DNA from: Nocardioides iriomotensis
GTDB lineage: Bacteria; Actinomycetota; Actinomycetes; Propionibacteriales; Nocardioidaceae
NCBI RefSeq assembly: GCF_004168035.1
Contig: NZ_SDPU01000022.1
Span: forward strand, 186,001 to 250,000
Direction of reading: 5' to 3'
Length of the DNA: 64,000 nt
The notes under the pieces: model-generated
What the model was told of the DNA's origin: nothing
The model's database searches: none
The model's input: only the letters and a program-made list of their open reading frames with translations
Shown here: positions 41,150 to 45,869 of the stretch, piece by piece
Layout: every line of letters starts with the position of its first letter
Numbering within the stretch: the first letter of the stretch is position 1
Translations under genes and position numbers: made by a program

Positions 41150-41584
41150 TCAGGCGCGGGCGACCTCGCGGCGGCGGACCAGGGTCCAGACGTTCTGGTC
41201 GTCGGTGAACTCGTGCCGCAGCTCGTCCAGTGCTGCCTCGGCGAGCGCGAGACCGCGGCCGCTCTCGGCCATCAGGTCGTCGGGCATCTCCGGGTCGTCG
41301 GCGACCTCGACCTCCGGGCCGGAGTGGGACAGCACGCCCACGAGCCGGTCGTCGTGGACGTCGAGGACGAAGGTGTAGACGACCGTCAGGCCCGGCGGTG
41401 CGTGCTGGACGACGTTGCCTGCGATCTCGATGATCGCCATCTCGATCATCGACATGTCGCCCTCGCTCAGCGAGGGGTGGTCGGCGCGTGCTTCGGCGAG
41501 GACGTCGTGGAGCAGCTCGATCGACTCGGGCACGGCGAGCCCGCTGACGGTGTACTCGGCAGGGGCCGGGACCTCACCAGCCAT
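41150..41584 (-). CDS. RsbW/SpoIIAB-like anti-sigma kinase (HATPase)
   Basis: A 144-residue GHKL ATPase-fold protein. The N-box is EMAIIEIAGNVVQHA (about 47-61) and the G-box is DDLMAESGRGLALAEAALDEL (in two parts, about 102-122). It should bind its STAS partner encoded immediately upstream, overlapping by 11 bases, phosphorylate it with ATP, and hold an unknown client when the partner is phosphorylated. It is last in the operon with the SpoIIE phosphatase and glycosyltransferase genes. No sigma gene is adjacent, so the client could be a remote sigma factor or the glycosyltransferase itself. Confidence 0.88.
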   Translation of the reverse strand: MAGEVPAPAEYTVSGLAVPESIELLHDVLAEARADHPSLSEGDMSMIEMAIIEIAGNVVQHAPPGLTVVYTFVLDVHDDRLVGVLSHSGPEVEVADDPEMPDDLMAESGRGLALAEAALDELRHEFTDDQNVWTLVRRREVARA

Positions 41585-41909
41585 CGGCGGCCGCCTCGAC
41601 CGACTCGAACGGGCGCAGCACCCGGTCGAGGTTGGTCAGCTTCAGCACGGTGGCGACCTGCTCGTTGACCCCCGCGATGCGCAGGTCGCCCTGCGCCTGA
41701 CGCGCCTTCTTCAGCGCCGCGATGAGGGCGCCGAGGCCGGACGAGTCCATGAAGGTGACCGCGGTGAGGTCGACGACGACGTGCGTGCCGCCGTGGTCGA
41801 CCAGGTCCTCGATCGCGCCCTTCAGGCGTGGTGCGGCGACCATGTTGAGCCGTCCGTCGAGCCGGACGACCGCCACCTTGCCGCGGACGTCGCTCGTGTC
41901 GATCTCCAT
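41574..41909 (-). CDS. STAS anti-anti-sigma factor (RsbV/SpoIIAA-like)
   Basis: A 111-residue STAS protein. VVVDLTAVTFMDSSGLGAL contains the serine pair (residues 56-57), one of which is the phospho-acceptor in the family. When dephosphorylated it would bind the RsbW-like kinase encoded next. It starts two bases after the glycosyltransferase stop, with the AGGAGCAGGC stretch inside the upstream gene as ribosome site. It is the switch between the operon's phosphatase and kinase. Confidence 0.92.
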   Translation of the reverse strand: MEIDTSDVRGKVAVVRLDGRLNMVAAPRLKGAIEDLVDHGGTHVVVDLTAVTFMDSSGLGALIAALKKARQAQGDLRIAGVNEQVATVLKLTNLDRVLRPFESVEAAADGW

Positions 41910-41910
41910 G

Positions 41911-43971
41911 TCAGGCCTGCTCCTGCCTCGCGTTCGTGGGTGCGTCGTCGTGCGCCGGGTCGGTCTCGACGTCGTCGTCCGGGGCGCGGAAGGCCGCGGC
42001 CCGGAAGATCACGCTGAGGATCAGCAGGTCGTAGGCGACCCACAGCACGTTGACGAACGTACCGATCGGAGCCTGCGACGCGCCGGTCCACAGCCGCAAC
42101 ACGCCGATGAGGGTGGCCAGGACGAGCACCGCGACCGCGACGGTCTGCGGGATGATCAGCCGCCACGGGAACGGCTGCCGGGCCTGCCGGGTCTTGGGCG
42201 TCACCACGAAGCCGAGCGGCCGGCCGAGGAACACGTTGGCCGCGGCGGTCCAGCACGCGCGGATCCACAACGGGAACAGGGCCATGGAGTACTGCTGGCC
42301 GCGCCAGGTCTTCACGCCGTACCCGACGACGAAGAACAGCAGCTGGTTGGCGACCATGAACGGCACGAAGTGGATCAGGAACTCGAGGCCGAACGCCTTC
42401 ACCGGCAGGATCCCGAAGCACAGGTAGATGACCGGCGCGGCGATGAAGACGACCGCGGCGAAGCCGGACAGGTAGCTCCACATGGTCGCGAAGTACATGA
42501 GCCGCTGGCCGAGGGTGAGGCCCTTCTGCACGAGGGGGTTCTCCCGCAGCATCACCTGGATGGTGCCCTGGGCCCAGCGCAGCCGCTGCTGCAGCATCGT
42601 GCGCAGGTCCTCCGGCGCGAGGCCGTGGGCGAGCTGCTCGTGGTGGTAGACCGACTTCCAGCCCAGCGTGTGCAGCCGCATGCAGGTGGCCATGTCCTCG
42701 GTGACCGAGACGGTGGCCAGCGGCATCATCGGCTGGGCCTCGTCGTCGCGGTCGACGTCGACGGCCTTGACCAGCTCGCGCACCGACTCGATGGCGCCGA
42801 GCGGCGACCAGTCGCGCTCGGCGAGCCGGTCGAGGGCGTCCTCGTCGACGACCACGACGCCGAGCTCGGCGTCGATGTCCACGCCGAGCTCCTCGATCGC
42901 CTTCAGGTCGTCCTCGATCGCGCGCATGTCCTTCGCCACCATCGAGCGGGCGGCGGCATCGACCCGCTGCTGGAAGGCGTAGGTGACGTCGGCGACGGGC
43001 GCGCCCGCGCTCAGCCGCTGCCGCGCCTCGCGGACTGCGGTCTCGACGGCGGCCAGGGTGCCCAGGCTCGGGTCGGAGGTACGGCGAGCCTCCCGCACGA
43101 CCCGGGACATCAGGCGGGCCGCGGTGGCGAGCGCGTCGCGCACGGCCTCCTCGGTGGCCTTGACGTAGCCGACGATGCCGAGCTGCATCAGCGCCTCGCG
43201 CCGCAGCACGGCGTTGGAGCCGCAGAAGAACGCGGCGTTCCAGCCGTCCTTGCCCTGCTGGATCGGCCCGTAGAACAAGGGCGCCTGGCTGCCGAGCGGG
43301 TCGGACTCGGTGACGTTGACGAAGAACTGCGGCGTCTGGACGAGCGCGACCTTGGGGTCCTCGAACCAGCCGAGGGTGCGGTCGAGGATGCGGGGATCGG
43401 GCACCTGGTCGGCGTCGAGGATCAGCATGTACTCGCCCTGCGTCTGGAACAGCGCGTTGTTCAGGTTGCCGGCCTTGGCGTGCCGCGGCCGGTCGGTCCA
43501 GTCGTCGGAGCGCGTGATGTAGCCGATGCCGTGCTCGGCGGCGGCCGCGCGCATGTCGGGCCGGTCGCCGTCGTCGAGGATCCAGGTCTCGTGGGGGAAC
43601 TCGATCCGCTTCGCCGCCCGGGCCGTGGCCAGGACGAGCTCGACCGGCTCGTTGTAGGTGCACACGAACACGTCGACGGTGGCGTCCGGCGGCGGCAGCG
43701 GCGGCTCGCCGCGCTCCTTGACGCGCCACATCGTGAGGCCGAACAGGTAGGCGTCGACCAGCGCGTACGTCTCCGCCACGACGAGGGGGACCGCGATCCA
43801 CCAGTTGGCCCAGTTGACGGAGAAGAGCCAGCGCCAGCCGACGTACCAGGTGCCCAGCGTCAGCGTGAGCACCACGAGCACCCGGATCAGCAGGTGCTTG
43901 CCGGGGTAGCTCTTCACGAGCCGGAACTCCGGGATCCCGGTGACGTCCGCCGCCCCCGTCGGCCGGGTCAC
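41911..43971 (-). CDS. Cellulose-synthase-like GT2 with internal helical insertion
   Basis: A 686-residue processive family 2 glycosyltransferase. Two N-terminal helices (about 27-80) are followed by the UDP-sugar motifs DDGD (133-136) and DAD (186-188), the acceptor motif TED (424-426) and QRLRW (462-466). Five or so C-terminal helices (about 490-660) and an acidic tail follow. There is no PilZ domain, unlike c-di-GMP-controlled BcsA. Between FFCGSNAVLRREAL (about 248-261) and the TED strand lies an insertion of about 145 residues (270-416), Ala/Arg/Glu-rich and mainly helical; classical BcsA has a few residues there. GTG 43971 overlaps the phosphatase stop. The product is probably a beta-linked exopolysaccharide; the sugar is unknown. 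Confidence 0.9.
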   Translation of the reverse strand: MTRPTGAADVTGIPEFRLVKSYPGKHLLIRVLVVLTLTLGTWYVGWRWLFSVNWANWWIAVPLVVAETYALVDAYLFGLTMWRVKERGEPPLPPPDATVDVFVCTYNEPVELVLATARAAKRIEFPHETWILDDGDRPDMRAAAAEHGIGYITRSDDWTDRPRHAKAGNLNNALFQTQGEYMLILDADQVPDPRILDRTLGWFEDPKVALVQTPQFFVNVTESDPLGSQAPLFYGPIQQGKDGWNAAFFCGSNAVLRREALMQLGIVGYVKATEEAVRDALATAARLMSRVVREARRTSDPSLGTLAAVETAVREARQRLSAGAPVADVTYAFQQRVDAAARSMVAKDMRAIEDDLKAIEELGVDIDAELGVVVVDEDALDRLAERDWSPLGAIESVRELVKAVDVDRDDEAQPMMPLATVSVTEDMATCMRLHTLGWKSVYHHEQLAHGLAPEDLRTMLQQRLRWAQGTIQVMLRENPLVQKGLTLGQRLMYFATMWSYLSGFAAVVFIAAPVIYLCFGILPVKAFGLEFLIHFVPFMVANQLLFFVVGYGVKTWRGQQYSMALFPLWIRACWTAAANVFLGRPLGFVVTPKTRQARQPFPWRLIIPQTVAVAVLVLATLIGVLRLWTGASQAPIGTFVNVLWVAYDLLILSVIFRAAAFRAPDDDVETDPAHDDAPTNARQEQA

Positions 43972-45164
43972 AGCTGGTCCCGCCGGACCACGATGCAGGT
44001 GATGTCGTCGGTGGCGACGTGGTCGCGGGCGTACTCCTCGACGATCTTCACCGCCTCGGCAGGGTCGGGGTAGTTGACGACGGTGATCCGCGCCGCCTCG
44101 ACGGCCTCCTCGATGCTGTCGAAGAGGTCGAGCAGGCCGTCGCTGAGGCAGATGAAGGTGTCGCCGGGGGCGAGCTGCACGGCGCGGGCCTCGCGGCGGA
44201 AGTCGAGCAGGCCGATCGGCATCGAGTCGGACACGAACCGCAGGGCGGTGCCGTCGGCGCGGACGATGCCGGCGATGCCGTGCCCGCAGTCGATGTAGCT
44301 CAGCACGTGGGAGCGGTAGTCGAGCCGGGCCACGAACATCGTGATGAAGCTGGAGATCTCCTCGAGGTCGTCGGCCATCGAGACGTCCGTGCGGTGCAGC
44401 GACGTCTCCACGTCGTTGAACTGCGAGGTGCCGCGCAGGACGGCCCGCGCGCCGGCGCCGACGAGCGCGGCCGCCATGCCCTTGCCCATCACGTCGGCGA
44501 CGACGAACTGGTAGCCGTCCTGGGCCGGGAACCAGTCGTAGAAGTCGCCGCCGACCGCCAGGGCGGGCACGCAGGTGCCGGCGACGGTGTAGCCGGGCAG
44601 CTCGGGCACCCGGCGCGGCAGCAGCCGGCGCTGGACGTCGCCCGCGCGGTTGAGCTCGTCGGTCAGCGCGAGCTCGGCCTCGGCGATGTCCGCGAGCTGG
44701 CGCAGCATGTCGAGCTGGTCGTCGGTGAGGTGCCGGGCCTTGTCGTCGGCGATGCAGAGCGAGCCGACGGGCACGCCGTTGGGCGCCTTGAGCGGCTGGC
44801 CGGCATAGAAGCGGAGACCGTCGGCGACCAGGGCGTTGTCCACGAAGCGTGGGTCGTGCGCGGCGTCCTCGACGACGAACGGCGTGTCGTCGAGGACGGT
44901 GTAGCGGCAGAACGAGTCGCCGATCGGCATCTCGTCCTTGCCGACCCCCACCTCGGCCTTGTTGTACTGCCGGCGCTCGTCGATCAGGGAGACGACGACG
45001 GTGGGGACGTCGAACATCCGCTGGGTCAGCCGGACGATGCGGTCGAAGCGTTCCTCGCGGGGCGTGTCGAGGAGGCGGAGTGCGGCCAGGGACTGCAGCC
45101 GCGTCTCGTTGTGGGTGTCTGCCTCGACGGCGTCGAGACTGCGCGAGTCGGGTGCGGCGCTCAC
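43968..45164 (-). CDS. GAF-SpoIIE (PP2C) phosphatase
   Basis: A 398-residue cytoplasmic phosphatase of the RsbU/SpoIIE class. A GAF sensor (about 30-165; DVPTVVVSLIDERRQYNKAEVG and a C-containing FCRYTVLDDTPFVVEDA), a short coiled linker (ELNRAGDVQRRLLPRRVPEL) and the PP2C core with metal ligands VGGDFYDWF, VADVMGKGMAAAL, CLSDGLLDLFD and DDITCIVV. It would dephosphorylate the STAS protein and so release the RsbW-like client. The GAF ligand is unknown. TATCTT (on the minus strand, 45172-45177), seven bases before GTG 45164, gives a leaderless start for the four-gene operon. Confidence 0.9.
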   Translation of the reverse strand: MSAAPDSRSLDAVEADTHNETRLQSLAALRLLDTPREERFDRIVRLTQRMFDVPTVVVSLIDERRQYNKAEVGVGKDEMPIGDSFCRYTVLDDTPFVVEDAAHDPRFVDNALVADGLRFYAGQPLKAPNGVPVGSLCIADDKARHLTDDQLDMLRQLADIAEAELALTDELNRAGDVQRRLLPRRVPELPGYTVAGTCVPALAVGGDFYDWFPAQDGYQFVVADVMGKGMAAALVGAGARAVLRGTSQFNDVETSLHRTDVSMADDLEEISSFITMFVARLDYRSHVLSYIDCGHGIAGIVRADGTALRFVSDSMPIGLLDFRREARAVQLAPGDTFICLSDGLLDLFDSIEEAVEAARITVVNYPDPAEAVKIVEEYARDHVATDDITCIVVRRDQL

Positions 45165-45272
45165 AAACGTAAAGATATCGGACTCCCATCGCCGAGTGCG
45201 TGGTCCTCCCGTTCGGATGATCGGCAGGTCCCTGCCACGGCATGAGTGCGCGCGGGTGACAGACTTGACGCT

Positions 45273-45869
45273 ATGACCGACCGCACCTCCGACCTGCGCG
45301 ACGCCATCGAGAAGTCGGGCTACTACCCCGACGTGGTGTCGCACGCGGTCGACGCAGCCGTGGCGGGGGAGGCGGTGCTGTGCTTCCTCGTGCACCACGA
45401 GCCGACCATCGACGAGCGGGACGAGGTGCGACGGCACATGAGCGTGCTGGTGCTGACGGCCTCGCGGCTGATCCTGGCGCACACCGACGAGCACCCGCCG
45501 GACGACCTGCTGCCGGCGCCGTACACCTCGTCCTCGACGGAGGCCGTCGCGATCAGCGCGATCCGCTCGGTCGTGGTCAACCGGATGGTCGCCAACCCGG
45601 CGTCGTACGCCGGCAAGCCGATCCCGCCGCCGGGGGCCAACGAGGCCGTGCTGACGATCGGCTGGGGCGCGGTGGGGCGCGTCGACCTCGAGCCCGCAGG
45701 CTGCGCCGACCCGGAGTGCGACGCCGACCACGGCTACACCGGCGTGGTGACCGCCGACGACTTCTCGCTCCGGGTGAGCGCCGCGGCCGAGGGGCCGCAG
45801 GCGGTGGCCGACCTGCTCGAGTTCGCCGACGCGCTCTCGGCCAGCACCGGCACCGTCGCCACCCGGTGA
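45273..45869 (+). CDS. DUF5998 family protein
   Basis: A 198-residue conserved actinobacterial protein of unknown function. Segments recognised are RDAIEKSGYYPDVVSHAVDAA, RHMSVLVLTASRLILAHTDEH and GCADPECDADHGYTGVVTADDF, which resembles a PH-like or nucleotide-related fold without clear catalytic residues. The gene and the phosphodiesterase gene that follows eight bases later are neighbours in many actinobacteria. CAGACT (45260-45265), seven bases before ATG, suggests leaderless expression. Confidence 0.83.
   Translation: MTDRTSDLRDAIEKSGYYPDVVSHAVDAAVAGEAVLCFLVHHEPTIDERDEVRRHMSVLVLTASRLILAHTDEHPPDDLLPAPYTSSSTEAVAISAIRSVVVNRMVANPASYAGKPIPPPGANEAVLTIGWGAVGRVDLEPAGCADPECDADHGYTGVVTADDFSLRVSAAAEGPQAVADLLEFADALSASTGTVATR

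Follow-up and report, generated by a model that had tools for sequence, protein, structure and literature searches.

Organization of the cassette

The window, meaning the whole 64,000-nucleotide stretch of Nocardioides iriomotensis DNA that was analysed, consists of high-GC actinobacterial DNA, and the host genome comprises 4.7 Mb in 47 contigs, with the cassette located at C15:227150-231164. Four genes follow one another on the minus strand of the window from position 45164 to 41150, encoding a GAF-SpoIIE phosphatase (PHOS), a BcsA-type GT2 synthase, a STAS protein and an RsbW/SpoIIAB-like kinase (KIN). Open reading frames and domain matches agree on this order, and the junctions correspond to those described in the sequence-only reading, with PHOS and GT2 overlapping by 4 bases, GT2 and STAS separated by one base, and STAS and KIN overlapping by 11 bases. 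The same reading had placed no sigma gene in or beside the operon, which was borne out, the nearest sigma70-type genes being more than 15 kb away, at approximately 14.1-15.1 kb (minus strand) and 23.7-25.2 kb (plus strand) of the window. A missed sigma gene near the cassette was also considered and rejected, since a search with an HMM derived from the sigma factors of this genome returned only distant or control matches.

A consensus promoter was sought upstream of the operon and none was found. The short stretch upstream of the phosphatase start carries no obvious Shine-Dalgarno sequence, which is compatible with a possibly leaderless operon; the phosphatase frame is open further upstream, so the start is itself a prediction. 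The divergent neighbour, at 45246-45869 on the plus strand, encodes a DUF5998 protein (2e-67) and begins 81 bp from the phosphatase start.

The synthase and its helical arm

The GT2 gene (41911..43971, minus strand) encodes 686 residues, with Pfam/NCBIfam matches to Cellulose_synt, to Glyco_trans_2_3 and, below threshold, to CelA, the score against the CelA equivalog TIGR03030 being 358 bits for a cut-off of 699. An AF2 model (pLDDT 83.8) found its closest solved folds in BcsA (9b8v/4p00) and then in plant CesA. The motifs DDG, DAD, TED, QRLRW and FxVTPK are invariant in 54 sequences, and so are the gating-loop residues F588, V590, T591 and K593, although PilZ is gone. In BcsA, the gating loop is the element released by c-di-GMP/PilZ, and for BcsA-type synthases c-di-GMP binding to PilZ is the textbook mode of regulation. 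The window GT2 has the catalytic motifs, membrane topology and FxVTxK gating loop of BcsA without the C-terminal PilZ, for which a Pfam scan gave no match, whereas control BcsAs did give PilZ, in accordance with what had been claimed from the sequence. PilZ was present in the canonical BcsAs of the broad set and of other actinobacterial families and absent from the window GT2, from L061 and L090, and from the cyanobacterial fusions described below; its absence alone is not diagnostic, since L032 has neither PilZ nor a switch. The PilZ-free clade spans Chloroflexota, Spirochaetota, Cyanobacteria and Actinomycetota, the last with, among others, Nocardioides, Arthrobacter, Gordonia and environmental mycobacteria. 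BcsB (PF03170) had no match in the window's genome, and the product of the GT2 is probably beta-glucan-like.

A predicted helical arm of about 155 residues (approximately residues 266-420; 42712..43176, minus strand) is inserted in the catalytic domain, where it separates the FFCGSNA/RREAL segment from the TED motif. Its length is 154-163 residues in all 30 family orthologues, and its helices are predicted at 258-298, 303-321 and 326-361. The arm is missing from canonical, PilZ-bearing BcsAs and from BcsA-like paralogues in related genomes; cyanobacterial GT2 relatives also have no arm and carry a different insertion, after the first DDG motif, instead. In Microbacterium rhizomatis (L088, 6004-8138), the arm is approximately 70 residues shorter, no kinase or phosphatase adjoins the gene and the STAS site reads DWSG in place of DSSG, a single case in which arm and kinase were possibly lost together.

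In many relatives, an OpgC_C acyltransferase gene follows the kinase (L031, 5255-8008; L063, L068, L062, L039 and others), and the N-terminal region of its product appears glycosidase-like (GH26-like) by eye, with no Pfam match there. The window locus has no OpgC_C gene, and a homologue of the N-terminal part is found elsewhere in the genome (G000:C1:29928-31085). This neighbour would fit a role in envelope glucan.

The switch proteins

The phosphatase gene (43968..45164, minus strand; 398 aa) encodes a GAF domain at residues 36-165 and a SpoIIE domain of the PPM phosphatase type at 216-395 (PF07228, 4e-29), and it has orthologues in 29 family loci. Its metal-binding motifs GGDFYD, ADVMGKG, LSDGL and TDDIT are all present in the translation, and its predicted role would be to receive the signal and to act as the STAS phosphatase. 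The sensor part varies by lineage (GAF, response-regulator receiver (REC), PAS-GAF, REC-PAS-GAF or a weak MASE1-like match) while the core is constant, and phosphatase and kinase form one protein in one Spirochaetales genome (L090, 3773-5992) and in one Anaerolineae genome (L091, 246-1910). Cassettes with two SpoIIE phosphatases, in tandem or flanking both sides, were also observed (L037, 5726-8244; L048, 4805-9870). The STAS gene (41574..41909, minus strand; 111 aa) encodes an anti-anti-sigma-type protein that matches TIGR00377 above the cut-off and carries the phospho-acceptor motif D55-S56-S57-G-L-G, and a DSSGL-type motif is kept in nearly all relatives. As in Rsb/SpoIIA modules, a phosphatase with sensor and intact motifs is therefore found together with a STAS protein with a DSSG site.

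The kinase gene (41150..41584, minus strand; 144 aa) encodes a HATPase_c_2 protein (PF13581, 4e-9, above the gathering threshold), which belongs to the GHKL fold family and has intact N and G2 boxes, with the aspartate of the G1 box replaced by histidine. In a motif census, this aspartate was present in 70 of 79 relatives, and it was lost repeatedly, with N-box and G2 box kept, in the window and in L061, L079, L049, L056, L059, L060 and L092, Micrococcaceae included. In SpoIIAB-type kinases, the G1 aspartate contacts adenine. Its loss makes ATP use by the window kinase doubtful, and this copy may bind without phosphorylating; the pattern of losses looks as if binding were sometimes kept and ATP use not. 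With a window kinase that is possibly impaired in ATP use, the full phospho-switch cycle that had been assumed for this locus becomes less certain.

Conservation of the gene set

Within the host's family, 150 genomes were searched and 31 full-length GT2 orthologues recovered, window included, with 58-72% identity and a wide gap to the next matches. The neighbourhood search that had been suggested as a check on conserved gene order was carried out on 30 family loci and gave the same order, PHOS-GT2-STAS-KIN, in 26, the permuted order GT2-STAS-KIN-PHOS in three and GT2 alone in one, so that all four genes occur together in 29/30. Junctions in the family are mostly short overlaps, which indicates that translational coupling is general, and in actinobacteria the junction that varies least is the one joining GT2 and STAS.

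A scan of a broad named genome collection yielded 80 loci. Among the 51 arm-bearing loci with a flank of at least 2 kb on each side, all three partners were found within 4 kb in 40, the remaining 11 consisting of six with kinase only (Curtobacterium), two with STAS only and three with no partner. Arm-bearing GT2s without partners occur at L009, L044, L053 and L072, and those with STAS only at L075 and L088. In Curtobacterium (L062, L064, L066, L067, L069, L070 and L071), the kinase directly follows the GT2, with STAS and phosphatase not nearby, and STAS homologues (approximately 52-55%) were found elsewhere in the genome in the four genomes checked. The gene set, which occurs in at least four phyla, recurs with permuted order in Chloroflexota (L082, L091), Spirochaetota (PHOS-KIN-GT2-STAS in L090) and Cyanobacteria, and Acidimicrobiales show PHOS-STAS-KIN-GT2 (L097). 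In Arthrobacter sp. ISL-30, a remnant cassette comprising phosphatase, a C-terminal GT2 fragment, STAS and kinase (L056, 1485-3187) lies a few kb upstream of a GT2-STAS-KIN set, and the same strain has a further partnerless GT2 (L044).

As a control, about 20 loci of BcsA-like paralogues without the insertion in related genomes showed no STAS, kinase or phosphatase gene of these types within the several kb examined; HMM blindness is a poor explanation for this result, since the models used did find the far more distant cyanobacterial partners. Chance clustering is ruled out by the contrast between 29/30 family loci and none of the ~20 paralogue loci, with the reservation that locus counts take related genomes separately and are not independent events. 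In a phylum-wide scan of approximately 400 genomes at a strict threshold, one full-length orthologue was recovered beyond that of the window, indicating that the module is patchy. Spread on known plasmids was considered and discarded, no match being obtained at 1e-60.

Kinase-synthase fusions in Cyanobacteria

At five of 32 cyanobacterial loci (L098, L108, L110, L112 and L209), a single open reading frame of approximately 790-810 aa carries an RsbW/SpoIIAB-type kinase domain that follows the DDG motif and interrupts, in the same frame, the catalytic domain of the GT2. Nineteen further loci are unfused with a separate kinase, five have no kinase in range and three are at a contig end. The inserted domain was identified as HATPase_c_2 in the three fusions tested (Pfam, 1e-18 to 9e-15), and the four fusions aligned all have intact N, G1 and G2 boxes; a STAS gene lies downstream of the fused GT2, and no separate kinase gene was found at the five fused loci in the stretches examined. 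When the fused domain was searched against four unfused genomes, its best stand-alone match was the kinase at the GT2 locus. An AF2 model of a fusion (pLDDT 82.5) matched BcsA/CesA overall, and in a fold search its kinase part matched SpoIIAB, RsbW and UsfX over approximately 135 residues, with TM scores by target of 0.72-0.82; a sequence search of the kinase domain against PDB sequences gave no match. Two changes on the GT2 tree are required to account for the fused state. An assembly artefact is an unlikely source of the fusions, as the five loci belong to separate records and two pairs fall in different tree branches.

Where a protein is encoded beside another in some genomes and forms a domain of it in others, this is a classical sign of functional, usually physical, partnership. 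Such "Rosetta stone" fusions provide strong evidence for the GT2 as the kinase's partner.

A synthase as the probable client of a partner switch

Taken together, these results favour, with a probability of roughly 0.65, the reading of the four genes as a partner-switching module that has the BcsA-type GT2, rather than a sigma factor, as its client. In the proposed mechanism, the kinase would dock on the GT2 from the cytoplasmic side, with the helical arm near the TED motif and gating loop as the most likely site, and would hold the enzyme in one activity state, which by analogy with RsbW and SpoIIAB would be the inactive one. Once a signal is sensed by the GAF domain, STAS would be dephosphorylated by the SpoIIE phosphatase and would then capture the kinase, so that the GT2 is freed to make a beta-glucan-like polymer until re-phosphorylation of STAS resets the switch. 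The partner switch would thereby take the place of PilZ/c-di-GMP control. The kinase is favoured as the element touching the GT2 because it is the kinase that fuses and that Curtobacterium keeps, while docking on the arm is extrapolated, as the fusions belong to a sub-branch with its insertion at another site and without the actinobacterial arm. Gating by protein contact, as originally proposed, gained support from the cross-phylum gene set, the module-specific arm and the cyanobacterial fusions; the contact itself in the window proteins, the surface used, the polarity (inhibition or activation), the signal and the identity of the polymer are what we infer. In broader terms, the balance tips slightly towards a widespread class of processive polysaccharide synthases being switched by an RsbW-type kinase that binds them directly, with the kinase built in as a domain in some cyanobacteria.

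The main rival to kinase contact is that dephosphorylated STAS binds and activates the synthase, in the way that SiaC acts on the cyclase SiaD, the kinase serving only to inactivate STAS, which we regard as unlikely but worth serious consideration. A STAS-type protein is the usual output of non-sigma switches (SiaC-SiaD, HsbA, BgrV; PMC8457831), and the same has been proposed for SypA (PMC8256260) and HmpV (PMC6495340). The constancy of the GT2-STAS junction in actinobacteria and the loci that have only GT2 and STAS (L075, L088, L109, L111 and L113) point in the same direction. However, the domain inserted in the cyanobacterial GT2 is the kinase rather than STAS, and Curtobacterium retains GT2 and kinase without STAS, although the fusion could merely serve to gather kinase and STAS at the enzyme. 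A different objection concerns the window rather than the family: its module could be decaying or simplified, with a kinase that no longer phosphorylates STAS and is at most a binding protein. The change of the G1 aspartate to histidine, with similar losses in L061, L079 and Micrococcaceae, makes this a possibility to be kept in mind, if not the expected outcome, given that all four genes have uninterrupted, closely coupled frames and that the N-box, G2 box, phosphatase and STAS motifs are preserved. Decay of the window module is compatible with the synthase being the client in the family at large.

Two further readings are disfavoured. An ordinary sigma switch, in which the GT2 would be a co-transcribed passenger or regulon member and the kinase would have as its client a SigB/F/G-type factor encoded elsewhere, draws on the fact that kinase, STAS and phosphatase belong to Rsb families; about six such factors are encoded elsewhere in the genome and could likewise be bound by the kinase, and the genome has many further HATPase_c_2 and STAS genes. 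This explanation is nevertheless very improbable, since no SigB/F/G-type gene accompanies the operon or is embedded in any cassette of the approximately 108 loci scanned, since the fourth member stays the GT2 from phylum to phylum even as gene order varies, and considering the kinase-GT2 fusions and the module-specific GT2 insertion. More improbable still is a c-di-GMP relay, whereby the switch would regulate a diguanylate cyclase whose product acts on the GT2 through a separate PilZ protein. Such an arrangement has a precedent in BgrSTUWV-BgrR of Sinorhizobium meliloti, where, according to Baena et al. as cited in PMC8457831, a partner switch controls mixed-linkage beta-glucan synthesis indirectly via c-di-GMP, and the window's genome gave 21 GGDEF matches. 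Against it, the GT2 has no PilZ, a regex scan found a GGDEF motif in just 1/57 broad-set loci, and the kinase-GT2 fusion leaves a cyclase no place. The synthase as direct client remains the preferred reading.

If this reading is true, BcsA-type enzymes would have a second, independent gating route beside c-di-GMP/PilZ, and partner switching would gain, besides the cyclases, another enzyme as a direct client. It would also offer a concrete test case for the targets of non-sigma switches such as SypA and HmpV, and with the fused cyanobacterial protein the question could be reduced to one purified polypeptide plus STAS.

Comparison with known systems

The control mode had been presented as one not known for such enzymes, which is correct in part: partner switches that bind enzymes directly are already known (SiaC-SiaD, HsbA-HsbD and BgrV-BgrR; PMC8457831), while a synthase as direct client seems unreported. 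In the open-access literature, to which the search was confined, no partner switch directly tied to a GT2 synthase and no module with a kinase-synthase fusion were found. What seems new is a module in which the synthase itself is conserved and, in some genomes, fused to the kinase. SiaABCD, HsbR/HsbA/HsbD and BgrSTUWV of Pseudomonas and Sinorhizobium share with it a direct enzyme client and a link to biofilm or exopolysaccharide (PMC8457831), but their client is a diguanylate cyclase and polysaccharide is affected via c-di-GMP, whereas here the clustered enzyme is the synthase. SypA/SypE of Vibrio fischeri and HmpU/V/W of Nostoc punctiforme control biofilm or hormogonium formation through a putative non-sigma target (PMC8256260, PMC6495340); no kinase-synthase fusion was found reported for either, and HmpV is encoded apart from HmpU/W, unlike the arrangement at the cyanobacterial GT2 loci.

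As regards the enzyme, BcsA is the best fold match and has catalytic motifs, transmembrane layout and FxVTxK gating loop in common with the window GT2, which differs from it in having no PilZ, no BcsB in the genome and a helical arm before TED. The class-specific region of plant CesA likewise interrupts the GT2 catalytic domain before the TED motif; it is comparable to the arm in position and is used in plants without a partner switch. As regards the switch, RsbU/RsbV/RsbW and SpoIIE/SpoIIAA/SpoIIAB comprise the same three families (sensor-SpoIIE phosphatase, DSSG STAS and GHKL kinase), and the fused cyanobacterial kinase domain folds like SpoIIAB and RsbW. In contrast to those systems, the cassette has no sigma factor, and its fourth member is a GT2 that in some cyanobacteria is fused to the kinase.
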